Shown piece after piece: positions 1,375-5,492 of a stretch of DNA of 21,711 bases (the first letter of the stretch is position 1; every line of letters begins with the position of its first letter). Source of the DNA: a virus; the IMG/VR virus record IMGVR_UViG_3300023109_000170, positions 1-21,711 of that record. One strand, written 5' to 3'. The notes under the pieces were generated by a model that worked only from the letters and a program-made list of their open reading frames with translations, did no database searches and was not told where the DNA came from. A program made the position numbers and the translations under genes.

Positions 1375-1580
1375 TGTGTTTTAAACCTAAAGTTCCAAAA
1401 GAATCCGCCGACTCTATTGCACAGCGCACTCGCGCCAAAGAACAAGCACAGGCTGAGACAAGCAGGCTTAAACGAGAGGGCCTTGAAGGGACAAAGCGCA
1501 CGGGCAGCGGGTCGATAGTCCGCAGCCTTTTGGCTTCACAAAACACCGGCGCTGGTTTTGGGCGTAATTACTTTGGCTGA
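1374..1580 (+). CDS. Small conserved phage protein between terminase and portal
   Basis: This encodes 68 aa starting at the ATG that overlaps the terminase stop by one base. The middle is charged and probably helical ('RTRAKEQAQAETSRLKREG', about residues 18-36). The tail is glycine-rich and ends 'GAGFGRNYFG'. Small proteins with a basic helix and a Gly/Phe-rich end are common beside terminase and portal genes in podoviruses, but I know of no assigned function. Position suggests a minor head or packaging accessory; that is inference. It has no signal peptide or membrane segment. The coupled TAATG start and the tight fit before the portal gene make a real gene likely. It overlaps the portal gene only if the portal uses an upstream TTG. 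Confidence 0.75.
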   Translation: MCFKPKVPKESADSIAQRTRAKEQAQAETSRLKREGLEGTKRTGSGSIVRSLLASQNTGAGFGRNYFG

Positions 1581-1590
1581 GTCATACCCA

Positions 1591-3153
1591 ATGCAGGGGC
1601 AAACTGCACCATCAGGTGAATCTGATCAGTCAATTCTTAGGGCGCGGAAAGCATTCGGCGCTAAAGAGAATAACTGGAACACACTCTTTGATGAGTGCTT
1701 TGATTATACAATGCCGGGTCGCACCGGCTTTTATGATGAAAGCCCTGGCCAACGACGCACGGCAGAAATCTTTGATGATACCGCCGTCGGTGGTGTGCAA
1801 GAGTTTGCAAGCAGAATCCAATCTGGATTGACGCCGGGGCATGTTCGTTGGGCTTCATTTGCCCCTGGACACACTGTGCCCGCAGAGCAAAAGCGAGAAA
1901 TGCTACAGCCGCTTGAAGATTTAAGCGGCCTTGTTTTTGATATTCTGCAACAAACAAACATCTCTGCCGAGCTACATGAATCTTATTTAGATTTGTCTGT
2001 TGGCACTGGCGTAATGCGTATCGACCAAGGCAATGCGCTAGAACTAATCCGATTCCGCTCTGTCCCAATGCCGTATGTTGCATTGGACGAGGGGCCGGAT
2101 GGGCGGATTGATGGTGTCTTTGTTAAGCACTTTCTTGAATACAATAAGATCGACAAGGTTTTTCCAGACGCAAAAAACCTTACGGAAGCCGATGCGCAAA
2201 ACAATAAGCGCTGTCAGCTAGTCGAGTCGTGTTATCGCGACTGGTCTAAAACCAATGAGTTTGTTTACACACATTGCTTGCATGATATGCGAACCGGCAA
2301 GCAGCTTATGAAAAAGACATTGAAGGGCATTGGCTCTTCACCGTTTATCGTATTCCGATGGGCTAAAGCAGCGGGCGAAGTTTGGGGTCGCGGCCCCGTG
2401 ATCAACTCACTGTCCAGCATTAAGACGGTCAATCTGGTAAGCCAATTGATTTTGGAAAACGCTGACCTTGCAGTTAGCGGAATGTGGCAGGTCGATGATG
2501 ACGGCTCGATCAACCCTGATACAATCAGGATTGCACCCGGTGCCGTTATTCCTGTAGCGCCAAATACCAGAGGTTTGCAGCCGCTGCCTTCTGCTGGCCG
2601 CTTTGATCTAAGCGGTATTGTGCTTGAGGATTTAAGATCGGCTATACGCCGATCTCTATTTAACGAACAGATGGGTTCGCCTAACCTATCTCCCAAAACA
2701 GCAACAGAAATTGCAGAGCGGATGGCAGACTTAAGCCGCCGCCTTGCTGGAACTTACTCGCGCCTTCAAAACGAACTCGTTGTTCCTTTGATGCAGCGCA
2801 CAATATTTATATTGCGACAGCGAGGACTGGTTGAAACTCCGCCTATTAACGGAGTGGATATTCGAGTTATCGCTTCCGCTCCACTATCGCAGGCACAGCG
2901 CTTCCAAGATATTGAAAACTTCTCGCGCTTTATGCAGCTATTGGGTGGACTGTTCGGGCCGCAGATTTCGAACCTTATGGTCGATCAGGCAAAAGCAACA
3001 GACTATCTTGCGGATAATCTGGCCGTTCCACAAACCTTAATACGAACACCGGAAGAAAGAGAAACTCTAATGCAACAGCTTATGGCTACGCAAAATCCAC
3101 AAATGGGAGAAGAGAGTGAAGCCCCCCAGCAACCCAGCGCACCTATCGGCTGA
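1591..3153 (+). CDS. Portal (head-to-tail connecting) protein
   Basis: The portal forms the dodecameric ring at the capsid vertex through which DNA enters and leaves, and on which the terminase and tail assemble. The protein is about 520 aa, close to T7 gp8 (536 aa). The N-terminal part carries the style of the podovirus head-tail connector family: 'NNWNTLFDECFDYTMPGR', 'RRTAEIFDDTAVGGVQEFAS' and 'LTPGHVRWASFAPG'. Later come 'EVWGRGPVINSLSSIKTVN' and 'NLSPKTATEIAERM', the crown/stem side. I chose ATG 1591, 11 bases after the previous stop, with a weak GAG upstream. TTG at 1558 or 1573 in the same frame would add 11 or 6 residues and overlap the 68-aa gene. The C-terminus is Gln/Pro-rich. Identity is firm, the start less so. 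Confidence 0.93.
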   Translation: MQGQTAPSGESDQSILRARKAFGAKENNWNTLFDECFDYTMPGRTGFYDESPGQRRTAEIFDDTAVGGVQEFASRIQSGLTPGHVRWASFAPGHTVPAEQKREMLQPLEDLSGLVFDILQQTNISAELHESYLDLSVGTGVMRIDQGNALELIRFRSVPMPYVALDEGPDGRIDGVFVKHFLEYNKIDKVFPDAKNLTEADAQNNKRCQLVESCYRDWSKTNEFVYTHCLHDMRTGKQLMKKTLKGIGSSPFIVFRWAKAAGEVWGRGPVINSLSSIKTVNLVSQLILENADLAVSGMWQVDDDGSINPDTIRIAPGAVIPVAPNTRGLQPLPSAGRFDLSGIVLEDLRSAIRRSLFNEQMGSPNLSPKTATEIAERMADLSRRLAGTYSRLQNELVVPLMQRTIFILRQRGLVETPPINGVDIRVIASAPLSQAQRFQDIENFSRFMQLLGGLFGPQISNLMVDQAKATDYLADNLAVPQTLIRTPEERETLMQQLMATQNPQMGEESEAPQQPSAPIG

Positions 3154-3406
3154 TGGGTTTGTAAGAACCCAAGAATCAGATGCGCGAATAAATCAAATCA
3201 TTGCTGCTACATTTAAGACTGGCACAGGGAAAGAAACGCTGGCTTATCTTCGCAGCATCACACAGCAAGTAGTTTGCACACCAGATCACAGCGATGCGTA
3301 TGTCCGCCACATGGAGGGCAAGCGTGATCTTGTGGCAATTATTATGAAGCGGATAGAGGAACACGACAATGCTGAACGACAGAGAATCAGAAAATCCAGA
3401 ACCTGA
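3116..3406 (+). CDS. Bbp19-like small head-region protein
   Basis: This encodes 96 aa and begins with GTG at 3116 inside the portal gene, behind a purine-rich GGGAGAAGA stretch. It overlaps the portal end by 38 nt. The core 'GTGKETLAYLRSITQQV' and 'MEGKRDLVAIIMKRIEE' resembles the small Bbp19-type proteins found between portal and scaffold genes in Bordetella BPP-1-like and many marine podoviruses; this is pattern recognition, not a search result. Such proteins are small, helical and of unknown function. Position between portal and scaffold suggests a role in procapsid assembly. No membrane segment is seen. Its 3' end overlaps the scaffold gene, also by 38 nt, so translation of the three genes is probably coupled. 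Confidence 0.8.
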   Translation: MKPPSNPAHLSADGFVRTQESDARINQIIAATFKTGTGKETLAYLRSITQQVVCTPDHSDAYVRHMEGKRDLVAIIMKRIEEHDNAERQRIRKSRT

Positions 3407-4097
3407 AGAGGGGGCTGAGTTTACAGAAGAGCAAGCTGTAGACAGGCCAGAGTGGCTGCCAGAAAAGTTTACTTCTCCAGAAGCGTTAGCTCAAAGTTAT
3501 TCTGAACTTGAGAAAGCGTTCCATGGAAAAAAAGAAGAGATTGAGGCAGCAGTTCGAGAGCAAATTGCATCCGAAGTCCCTGAAGGCGTTCCAGAAACCC
3601 CTGGAGATTATGCATTTCCTGAAACCCTTGAGGTTGATGAAGACGCATTTAATGAAAGCGAACTTGCAACATGGTGGAGAGAAACCTGTCATGCAGCCCG
3701 TTTGCCACAAGAAGCATTTAATGAAGGACTTGAAACCTATGCTCGCGCAATGATGGGGCCAGACCCTGCTGTTGAAATGCAAGCACTGGGCGAGAATGCG
3801 CAAGCACGTATTTCTGCTGTCGCAGCTTGGGCCGACACAAATGTTTCTGATGAGGGAGAGTACGCCGCTTTACAGCGGATGGCACAAACCGCTTCTGGCA
3901 TTCAGCTTTTGGAAAAAATGATGGGCGGCTCAACAACAGGTGCATCTATTTCTTCTAGTGATGGTCAGCCAACACTAACAGTAGAAGAGTTGATTGAAGC
4001 ACAAAATGACGAGCGTTATTGGAACCCCAATAAACGCGATCCTTCCTTTGTGGCAAAAGTGGATGAGATGAATGCGAGGTACTATAAAAACCGTTAA
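3369..4097 (+). CDS. Capsid scaffolding / assembly protein
   Basis: This encodes 242 aa, very acidic at the N-terminus ('EPEEGAEFTEEQ'), followed by 'RPEWLPEKFTSPEALAQSY', the 'PEWLPEKF...A..Y..LE' signature of T7 gp9-type scaffolds, then a charged helix ('KAFHGKKEEIEAAVREQI'). The C-terminal part is helical and ends 'RDPSFVAKVDEMNARYYKN', a likely capsid-binding helix. T7 gp9 is 307 aa, so this one is shorter. Scaffolds guide capsid protein into a procapsid and are later released. It sits downstream of the portal as expected; the acetyltransferase gene then separates it from the capsid gene. ATG 3369 lies within the previous gene's end, and its own end overlaps the next gene by 26 nt. Identity rests on composition, order and the N-terminal signature. 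Confidence 0.85.
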   Translation: MLNDRESENPEPEEGAEFTEEQAVDRPEWLPEKFTSPEALAQSYSELEKAFHGKKEEIEAAVREQIASEVPEGVPETPGDYAFPETLEVDEDAFNESELATWWRETCHAARLPQEAFNEGLETYARAMMGPDPAVEMQALGENAQARISAVAAWADTNVSDEGEYAALQRMAQTASGIQLLEKMMGGSTTGASISSSDGQPTLTVEELIEAQNDERYWNPNKRDPSFVAKVDEMNARYYKNR

Positions 4098-4533
4098 GCC
4101 AAGCGACATTGATAATGTAATGGCAATGGGTCGAGCGCTCCATCTGGAGTCTCGATACCGGCATATTCCATTTGATGAATCGGTTGTTGCGGAAACTTTT
4201 TTAAACTTGCATCATCAAGACGATGTTTTGTTTTCTGTCTTTGCCTGCATTGCAGACAAGCCAGTTGGGATTATGTGCGCAATAAAAACCAACCTGTATT
4301 TTTCTAGCAAGAAATTTACATCGGATTTATTGTTCTACGTTAAACCAGAAGCGCGTGGCGGAACGTCTGCTCTTAACTTAATCCGAAGCTACACAAGCTG
4401 GGCACAAAAAGACCCCGATGTCGCAGAGATTCAGCTTGGCGTGACAACCGGCATAGCGGAAGACAAGACAGCAGGGTTCTTAAAAAAACTAGGATATAGC
4501 AAAAGTGGGGAACAGTTTGTTTTTATGGATTGA
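4072..4533 (+). CDS. GNAT-family N-acetyltransferase
   Basis: This encodes 153 aa, the size of a single GNAT domain, which moves an acetyl group from acetyl-CoA to an amine. Visible elements: N-terminal 'TIKTVKPSDIDNVMAMG' (beta1-alpha1), 'VFACIADKPVGIMCA' (beta2-beta3), 'LLFYVKPEARGGTSALNLI' (beta4 and the acetyl-CoA-binding loop, with a degenerate R-G-G version of the usual RxxGxG/A), 'AEIQLGVTTGI' (beta5) and 'GFLKKLGYSKSGEQFVF' (typical C-terminal GNAT end). ATG 4072 lies in the scaffold 3' end (26-nt overlap). It sits between scaffold and capsid genes, an unexpected place for an enzyme. The substrate is unknown: capsid, scaffold or a host protein are all possible. The fold call is confident, the role open. 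Confidence 0.87.
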   Translation: MRGTIKTVKPSDIDNVMAMGRALHLESRYRHIPFDESVVAETFLNLHHQDDVLFSVFACIADKPVGIMCAIKTNLYFSSKKFTSDLLFYVKPEARGGTSALNLIRSYTSWAQKDPDVAEIQLGVTTGIAEDKTAGFLKKLGYSKSGEQFVFMD

Positions 4534-4558
4534 CAAAATCTGCTTAATCTGTAATTAA
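4530..4558 (+). promoter_or_regulatory. Weak candidate sigma70-type promoter before the capsid leader
   Basis: A perfect TTGACA occurs at 4530-4535, straddling the acetyltransferase stop codon. At 17-nt spacing the -10 position reads AATTAA (4553-4558), a poor match. A better -10 match, TGTAAT (4550-4555, five of six), is only 14 nt away, which is short. The hexamer alone could be chance. If active, it would give the capsid gene its own transcript starting within the structured leader. Confidence 0.25.
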
Positions 4559-4673
4559 GCGATCAGGTCCATATCAAGACGATGAGCCATTAACTTGGGA
4601 ACTCATGCCGGTCTGAGGTTGGGAAACCGACAGCCAACCAGTTGCATACGCAACATTTAGATCGGAGACTCTT
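4534..4673 (+). promoter_or_regulatory. Structured 5' leader of the major capsid gene
   Basis: This is the longest gap in the window (140 nt) and it directly precedes the most highly expressed structural gene. It contains several inverted repeats: GCTTAAT/ATTAAGC (4542-4548/4554-4560, loop CTGTA); ATGAG/CTCAT (4582-4586/4602-4606) enclosing CCA/TGG (4587-4589/4596-4598); GG, CTG and GGTT (4610-4620) pairing with AACC, CAG and CC (4625-4635) around a GGGA tetraloop; and GTTGC/GCAAC (4641-4645/4650-4654, loop ATAC) just before the Shine-Dalgarno GGAG (about 4664-4667). GGTTGG (4617-4622) can instead pair with CCAACC (4634-4639), excluding the GGGA hairpin. A role in mRNA stability or translation control is inference. 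It matches no riboswitch or ribozyme class that I recognise. Confidence 0.5.
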
Positions 4674-5492
4674 ATGAGCGATACCATTACACAAGCTTTT
4701 ATCACGCAGTTTGAGCGTGATGTTCATCTCGTATACCAACGCCAGGGTTCGAAGTTCCGTGGCACCGTTCGCACGAAAACGGTTGTTGGTAACACTGTCC
4801 GTTTTCAAAAGCTCGCCAAGGGCGTTGCAACGACTAAAGGTCGCCATGCGGACATCGTCCCAATGGACCTTGAGCACAGCAATGTTGAAGCCACAATGGC
4901 TGATTATTATGCTGGCGATTATGTTGATGTTCTTGACGAACTGAAAACCAACATTGATGAGCGTATGATCGTTGCTCAGTCTGGCGCTTATGCGCTTGGC
5001 CGCACGACGGATGACATCATTATTGCCGCCGCAGAAACCACGGGCAGCACCATTGCTAATGGCGGTACGGGCCTCACCAAAACAAAAGTCCTTGAAGTCT
5101 TTGAGACTTTCAATGCGAACGATGTTCCGGATGACGGCCAGCGTTGGATGGCGATTTCTCCAAAGGCATGGACTGATCTTCTTTCTGAAGATTCCTTCGC
5201 CTCGGCTGACTTCATCGGCCTTGACGAACTGCCGTACAAAGGCGGAATGACCGCTAAACGGTGGCTTGGATTCAACATCTTTACGCACTCGGGTTTGACT
5301 GTAGCGGCGAACATTCGCAACTGCATTGCCTACCATATGTCTTCTTTGGGTCACGGCATCAACTCTGAAGTCCAGACGCGGATTGATTACGTTCCGCAGA
5401 AAGCGTCCAATCTGATCAACTCAAGCCTGTCTATGGGGTCTGTTTTGATTGATGGCGCTGGTTGCCTGGTTGTCGAAGTTGACGAATCCTAA
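4674..5492 (+). CDS. Major capsid protein
   Basis: This encodes 272 aa that build the icosahedral shell. The N-terminus 'ITQAFITQFERDVHLVYQRQ' with 'GSKFRGTVRTKTVVGNTVRF' and 'DYVDVLDELKTNIDERM' is characteristic of the HK97-fold capsid proteins of BPP-1-like and marine podoviruses. 'QRWMAISPKAWTDLL', 'FNIFTHSGL' and 'RIDYVPQKASNLINSSLSMG' match the later P- and A-domain strands of that group. The start is fixed by GGAG six to seven bases upstream of ATG 4674. Tandem stops TAATAG end the gene, as often seen in highly expressed genes. The long structured leader and the terminator after the next gene suggest expression as a strong two-gene unit. It is preceded by scaffold and GNAT genes and followed by a small head protein. 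Confidence 0.92.
   Translation: MSDTITQAFITQFERDVHLVYQRQGSKFRGTVRTKTVVGNTVRFQKLAKGVATTKGRHADIVPMDLEHSNVEATMADYYAGDYVDVLDELKTNIDERMIVAQSGAYALGRTTDDIIIAAAETTGSTIANGGTGLTKTKVLEVFETFNANDVPDDGQRWMAISPKAWTDLLSEDSFASADFIGLDELPYKGGMTAKRWLGFNIFTHSGLTVAANIRNCIAYHMSSLGHGINSEVQTRIDYVPQKASNLINSSLSMGSVLIDGAGCLVVEVDES

Follow-up and report, generated by a model that had tools for sequence, protein, structure and literature searches.

The closest described relatives of a structured capsid leader come from several quarters. The capsid mRNA of phage T7 carries a 5′ stem-loop in its gene 10 leader, and the coat-protein operators of the RNA phages MS2, PP7, and Q-beta are single hairpins located at the replicase start. 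Major capsid protein makes up the bulk of what an infection produces, and to our knowledge the post-transcriptional setting of its amount in tailed phages is poorly known. Among leader RNAs of ribosomal-protein genes, 20 further candidates have been put forward (PMC7247131), and comparative genomics has identified the cyanophage cis-RNAs manA, wcaG, and PhotoRC-II in 5′ untranslated regions of marine phages (PMC2864571).

The locus considered here lies in a 21.7-kb virus record with podovirus-type late genes, the whole of which is referred to as the window. Tail genes follow its capsid gene, and its capsid protein is 51% identical to that of Pelagibacter phage Hodr. The intergenic gap does adjoin the major capsid gene, as the original prediction of a capsid-gene leader RNA had it, and the surrounding features are as follows.

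1-1374, terminase, a late gene
1558-3153, head-tail adaptor, a late gene
3369-4097, weak head-assembly match
4072-4533, acetyltransferase-like gene (phrog_1249), flanked by the weak head-assembly match and the capsid gene
4664-4667, + strand, Shine-Dalgarno sequence GGAG, 6 nt ahead of the ATG at 4674
4674-5492, + strand, major capsid protein gene, 272 aa (phrog_3437, E = 2.7e-60)

A TTGACA at 4531-4536 overlaps the acetyltransferase stop codon and is kept in five related leaders (L002 to L006). It is a possible −35 element, in which case the transcript would start near the first helix of the leader, P1.

The family sample comprised 326 capsid leaders from loci retrieved by capsid homology, and a structure-blind alignment of 55 non-redundant leaders was the source of the fold. 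The aligned pattern reads ACGG-C-CCGT ... GG-AYAM-CC ... ACGG-AYAM-CCGT, with the elements in the order P1a, loop A, P1b, P2, P3, loop B, and P4. An outer helix, P1 (P1a and P1b), thus encloses an inner hairpin, P3/P4, with a variable P2 between them. Both P1 and P3/P4 are broken by the same asymmetric internal loop, in which one C faces 4 to 5 nucleotides; the single C is found in nearly all well-parsed leaders, and the facing strand is usually AYAA or AYAC. The 3′ end of the conserved fold lies a median of 35 nt before the capsid ATG, leaving the Shine-Dalgarno sequence outside.

Several lines of evidence bear on this fold. Across 39 cleanly aligned leaders, 90.3% of cells were paired, compared with 80.2% after shuffling and 32 to 47% with slid partners, and double changes were seen in 70 cells versus 19.7 in shuffled data. 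For 77 leaders and all 17 pairs together the corresponding figures were 238 and 78.5, in an alignment fitted with the model and thus tilted in its favor. On an independent capsid-protein tree of 76 leaders, we counted 101 compensatory branch-by-pair double changes over the 17 pairs, against 0 to 5 for slid partners and 1 to 7 for randomly re-paired columns. P1a contributed 14 of these events and P1b 17, and P3 is the strongest covarying helix in the family. RNAalifold recovered P1b, P3, and P4 unaided. Because the compensatory events so exceed the 0 to 7 of the controls, and with the pairing and covariation tests alongside, the twin-loop fold is established for the family by comparative sequence analysis.

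The fold is also tied to its location. A covariance model (R1) searched against 80 loci gave 42 matches at E ≤ 1, every one of them in sense orientation directly ahead of the capsid ATG, and in a search of whole records it matched 29 of 50 phage records exactly once each. The 21 records with no match include divergent pelagiphage-type leaders lost by the fast first look. A second model, built from 77 leaders (R2), matched extra pelagiphage-type leaders, again all within the capsid leader. Judged from these alignments, the fold is shared by the capsid leaders of many related marine viruses, including the cultured SAR11 phage Hodr. A host origin was considered and tentatively rejected: about 330 genomes from the two bacterial classes to which L330 and L328 belong, searched with strict filters and with a first set lacking a positive control, gave as their sole match a contig of the L328 metagenome-assembled genome, and this contig encodes the phage capsid gene.

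The two internal loops behave as a pair. Loops A and B are of one class in 82 of 84 leaders (with hand assignment of the loops in nine leaders), the classes being AYAA/AYAA, AYAC/AYAC, and, in the window lineage, GGRA/GGRA; pairs of five-nucleotide loops occur in L080, L034, L167, L242, and L245. On the tree, both loops changed on seven branches and a single loop on four, whereas about 0.5 joint changes would be expected if the loops were independent. Because their classes match and mostly change together, the loops point to one partner, which could be a protein with two sites or, if the loops bind each other, the opposite loop.

Between the loops, the best-aligned main clades carry an exact kink-turn (k-turn) consensus at the P2/P3 junction. 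Here P3 serves as the C helix and is followed by a three-nucleotide bulge and a G and an A on each strand; both A residues are invariant, both G residues reach at least 90%, and the 3b.3n position is variable. The C-G pair at 4b-4n shows eight compensatory branch events. The remainder of P2 is weak (72% paired). Several pelagiphage-like leaders do not conserve the k-turn, though both of their loops are kept.

The window leader can be parsed into the same elements, all on the + strand.

4566-4628, + strand, twin-loop leader RNA core, P1 through P4, the only twin-loop element in the 21.7 kb
4566-4568, + strand, 5′ strand of P1a, GGT, pairing with ACC 4626-4628
4569, + strand, single C of internal loop A, opposite GGAA 4622-4625
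4570-4571, + strand, 5′ strand of P1b, CA, pairing with TG 4620-4621
4577-4580, + strand, 5′ strand of P2, AGAC, pairing with GTCT 4611-4614; aligned by R2 to the family P2 and invariant in L001 to L006
4582-4586, + strand, 5′ strand of P3, ATGAG, pairing with CTCAT 4602-4606
4587, + strand, single C of internal loop B, opposite GGAA 4598-4601
4588-4597, + strand, P4 (CA 4588-4589 with TG 4596-4597) and hairpin loop TTAACT
4598-4601, + strand, internal loop B, GGAA, of the same class as loop A
4602-4606, + strand, 3′ strand of P3, CTCAT
4611-4614, + strand, 3′ strand of P2, GTCT, aligned by R2
4620-4628, + strand, 3′ strand of P1b (TG), internal loop A (GGAA, 4622-4625), and 3′ strand of P1a (ACC)
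4634-4654, + strand, CCAACC and the GTTGC-ATAC-GCAAC hairpin, lineage-specific and outside the conserved element

The core sits on the sense strand, no more than about 110 nt ahead of the major capsid ATG, and its junctions (J5 of 10 nt, J3 of 13 nt) fall within the family ranges of about 8 to 13 and 10 to 16, with GGAA in both loops. We searched both strands of the window for the architecture itself, i.e., one C in each loop, 4-nt loops of identical sequence, and family spacings; these rules were derived from the family but put to use only once the window parse was known. The only site was 4566-4628, and none of 2,000 shuffled leaders reached its score, while a looser score with the identical-loop rule removed was reached by 4 of 150 shuffles. 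Model R1 gave no match in register on the window. R2 gave a weak one (4.1 bits), which was full length, spanned 4558-4635, and was the best match of the stretch.

Comparison with L002 to L006 is informative as well. Positions 4565-4628 are identical to L002 at 55 of 64 nt, and the flanks hardly align. All nine differing core columns are compensatory or wobble-keeping changes in P3 or P4, or fall in the hairpin loop or loop A. The former include, in L002 to L006, A-T to G-C double changes at 4582/4606 in P3 and 4589/4596 in P4, and a T-A to T-G change at 4583/4605 in P3. Loop A is GGGA in L002 to L006 and in L335. A pattern scan for this GGRA-type lineage yielded eight contigs. The window differs from the majority in two respects, with GGAA/GGRA in place of AYAM in both loops and AGAC/GTCT in place of tandem GA at the P2/P3 junction, where there is no k-turn. 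Because loop class differs between lineages, we treated the GGAA/GGRA loops as a variant that does not exclude the window from the family. On this sequence comparison, the window leader is very probably a divergent family member.

The conserved object lies upstream of the elements on which the original prediction was built. That prediction had proposed a translational switch beside the ribosome site, in which a GGTT-GGGA-AACC hairpin competes with a GGTTGG/CCAACC pairing, with a further hairpin just above the Shine-Dalgarno sequence; it listed neither the conserved hairpin 4582-4606 nor the long-range helix 4566-4571/4620-4628. All of the named repeats are indeed present (GGTT 4617-4620 with AACC 4625-4628, GGTTGG 4617-4622 with CCAACC 4634-4639, and GTTGC-ATAC-GCAAC at 4641-4654). 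The leader also folds better than dinucleotide shuffles (−43.3 versus −32.5 kcal/mol, z of −2.73, 2 of 200), and the window minimum-energy fold includes both GGTTGG/CCAACC and the 4641-4654 hairpin. However, neither of these is conserved. Both CCAACC and the 4641-4654 hairpin are absent from L002 to L006, the nearest distinct relatives, whose capsid proteins are 78 to 79% identical to that of the window, and the two pairings are confined to the near-identical contigs L001, L335, and L336. Stems that are not conserved in relatives were what the original prediction had itself named as its refutation, and this was the outcome for both GGTTGG/CCAACC and the 4641-4654 hairpin. Nor does the family counterpart of the GGTT-GGGA-AACC hairpin, a local CGG-AYAM-CCG hairpin, covary: it pairs in 76.3% of cases, exactly as in shuffled columns. 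With no sign of selection for a switch that uses the window minimum-energy fold, we find the proposed switch very hard to credit. What stands is a structured capsid leader near the ribosome site and under selection; the two mutually exclusive folds, whose stems are unconserved, do not. A selected structure in this position is most naturally read as regulating capsid output in cis.

How such regulation might work is suggested by the energetics. The helices are only 2 to 5 bp long, and the conserved fold lies 0 to 14.7 kcal/mol above the minimum. Since most members have a different minimum-energy fold, the conserved one is probably held by a partner or by tertiary contacts. Simple occlusion of the ribosome site found little favor, as predicted Shine-Dalgarno accessibility was 0.41 in the free ensemble and 0.49 in the conserved fold (p = 0.049), a weak effect only. 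A pseudoknot between TTGAAGT after P3 and ACTTCAA before the Shine-Dalgarno sequence is striking in a few leaders, and was rejected for the family (permutation p of 0.01 to 0.44, with reversed tails scoring equally high).

Taken together, we favor a protein-binding cis-regulatory leader, with a passive 5′ stabilizer of the T7 gene 10 type as the main rival. Specifically, we give a probability of roughly 55% to the reading that this is a new cis-regulatory capsid leader of marine podovirus-like phages, divergent in the window, whose twin loops bind one regulatory partner. That partner would most likely be a dimeric RNA-binding protein present during infection, for which the twin loops would be the recognition sites; bound just upstream of the ribosome footprint, it would modulate the translation of the capsid mRNA or its stability. 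A more specific proposal, which we advance tentatively and think rather unlikely, is that the dimer consists of the capsid protein or of some other protein of the virion. If true, the leader would be an RNA operator through which a tailed double-stranded DNA phage controls its capsid gene autogenously, co-evolving with its binder across marine phages.

The stabilizer reading holds that a structural 5′ end guards the capsid mRNA from decay and aids translation with no specific regulator. It is consistent with an element that occurs at the capsid leader only, stops about 35 nt short of the ATG with the ribosome site outside, and serves the most needed product. Yet a protecting hairpin requires neither conserved unpaired residues nor a pair of loops changing in concert, and these helices are short and weak. 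Moreover, a family-wide sigma-70 −10 element just upstream of P1 was not enriched (25 versus 21 in shuffled data), so that a 5′ end at the base of the structure is only putative. We consider this account rather unlikely. A different explanation for the concerted loop changes would be contact between the loops themselves: a k-turn could bend P3 over and bring loops A and B into contact or into one shared pocket, as in intramolecular docking or a small-molecule riboswitch. The position of the main-clade k-turn between the loops fits this idea, and so does a conserved fold that is not the thermodynamic minimum. Against it, the window and several pelagiphage-like leaders keep both loops with no k-turn, the loops vary by lineage (AYAA, AYAC, five-nucleotide, GGRA) unlike a ligand pocket, no Rfam riboswitch matches, and a single structural gene is controlled, all of which makes docking or ligand binding quite improbable.

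Irregular helices in an intergenic gap amid late genes could, in principle, also mark a processing or stability site, such as an irregular hairpin of the RNase III type. RNase III sites are longer helices with no conserved loop sequence, whereas the helices here span only a few base pairs, and we regard processing as highly unlikely.

A number of other leaders deserve mention. The twin-loop fold does not fit the capsid leaders of HTVC010P, HTVC034P, HTVC203P, Lederberg, and Skadi. The leaders of HTVC010P, Lederberg, HTVC203P, Skadi-1, and HTVC034P (L341 to L343, L345, and L346) are strongly conserved with one another about 100 nt before the capsid ATG, and this group possibly has another structured leader. 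In Vibrio phage CKB-S2 (L348), positions 485-545 hold two separate capsid-leader hairpins with the same ATAA/C internal loop in each; one is motif A with permuted strand order and the other an exact motif B. As a conserved feature the twin hairpins were rejected, since they are absent from an 83%-identical relative (L349). Lone motif-B-like hairpins, with C opposite ATAA, ACAA, or CATA, were seen by eye before the more distant capsid genes of Baldr (L344), Manatee Spring (L347), MEP301 (L083), and L350.

Two upstream signals were also observed. The sequence TTTGTGCGTTGC recurs ahead of the leader, about 130 to 150 nt before the capsid ATG, in L007, L018, L030, L054, L067, and others. Because its reading frame in L030 apparently differs from that elsewhere, the string may act at the DNA level, for example as a promoter, and not reflect coding conservation. 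In L063, L065, L068, and L072, a terminator-like hairpin and T run (GTCCC..GGGGCGG..TTTTTT) immediately precedes the leader, about 160 to 190 nt ahead of the capsid ATG, and suggests a separate capsid transcript.

With respect to known RNAs, no Rfam 15 family was matched at the gathering threshold, and a permissive scan was empty in the leaders. None of the accessible full texts described this leader. Structured leaders are a known kind of element; the present family, with its twin-loop design, appears to be new. The manA, wcaG, and PhotoRC-II RNAs differ in being Rfam families, none of them matched here, that are tied to metabolic, exopolysaccharide, or photosynthesis genes. Ribosomal-protein leaders are similar in being structured, upstream of a gene for an assembly-forming protein, and often autogenous; the gene here is instead a phage capsid gene, and the RNA has no Rfam match. 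The main clades share with the kink-turn motif an NNN bulge, tandem G.A/A.G pairs, and a covarying C-G at 4b-4n, but the motif is absent in the window lineage and is only one element of a larger fold.

A conserved RNA at the capsid gene of marine podoviruses supplies a concrete, testable point of control, together with a possible new motif for RNA-protein recognition, with the co-evolving paired loops predicting one partner with two sites. The T7 gene 10 leader, likened here by description and not by sequence, is comparable in that it, too, is structured, lies at the 5′ end ahead of the major capsid gene of a podovirus, and leaves the ribosome site free; the present family differs in its twin internal loops, main-clade k-turn, and strong covariation. 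The MS2, PP7, and Q-beta operators provide a possible analogy of function, the common point being a small helix of phage RNA in which conserved unpaired residues could be read by a protein of the virion, whereas the leader described here presents twin internal loops and belongs to double-stranded DNA phages.
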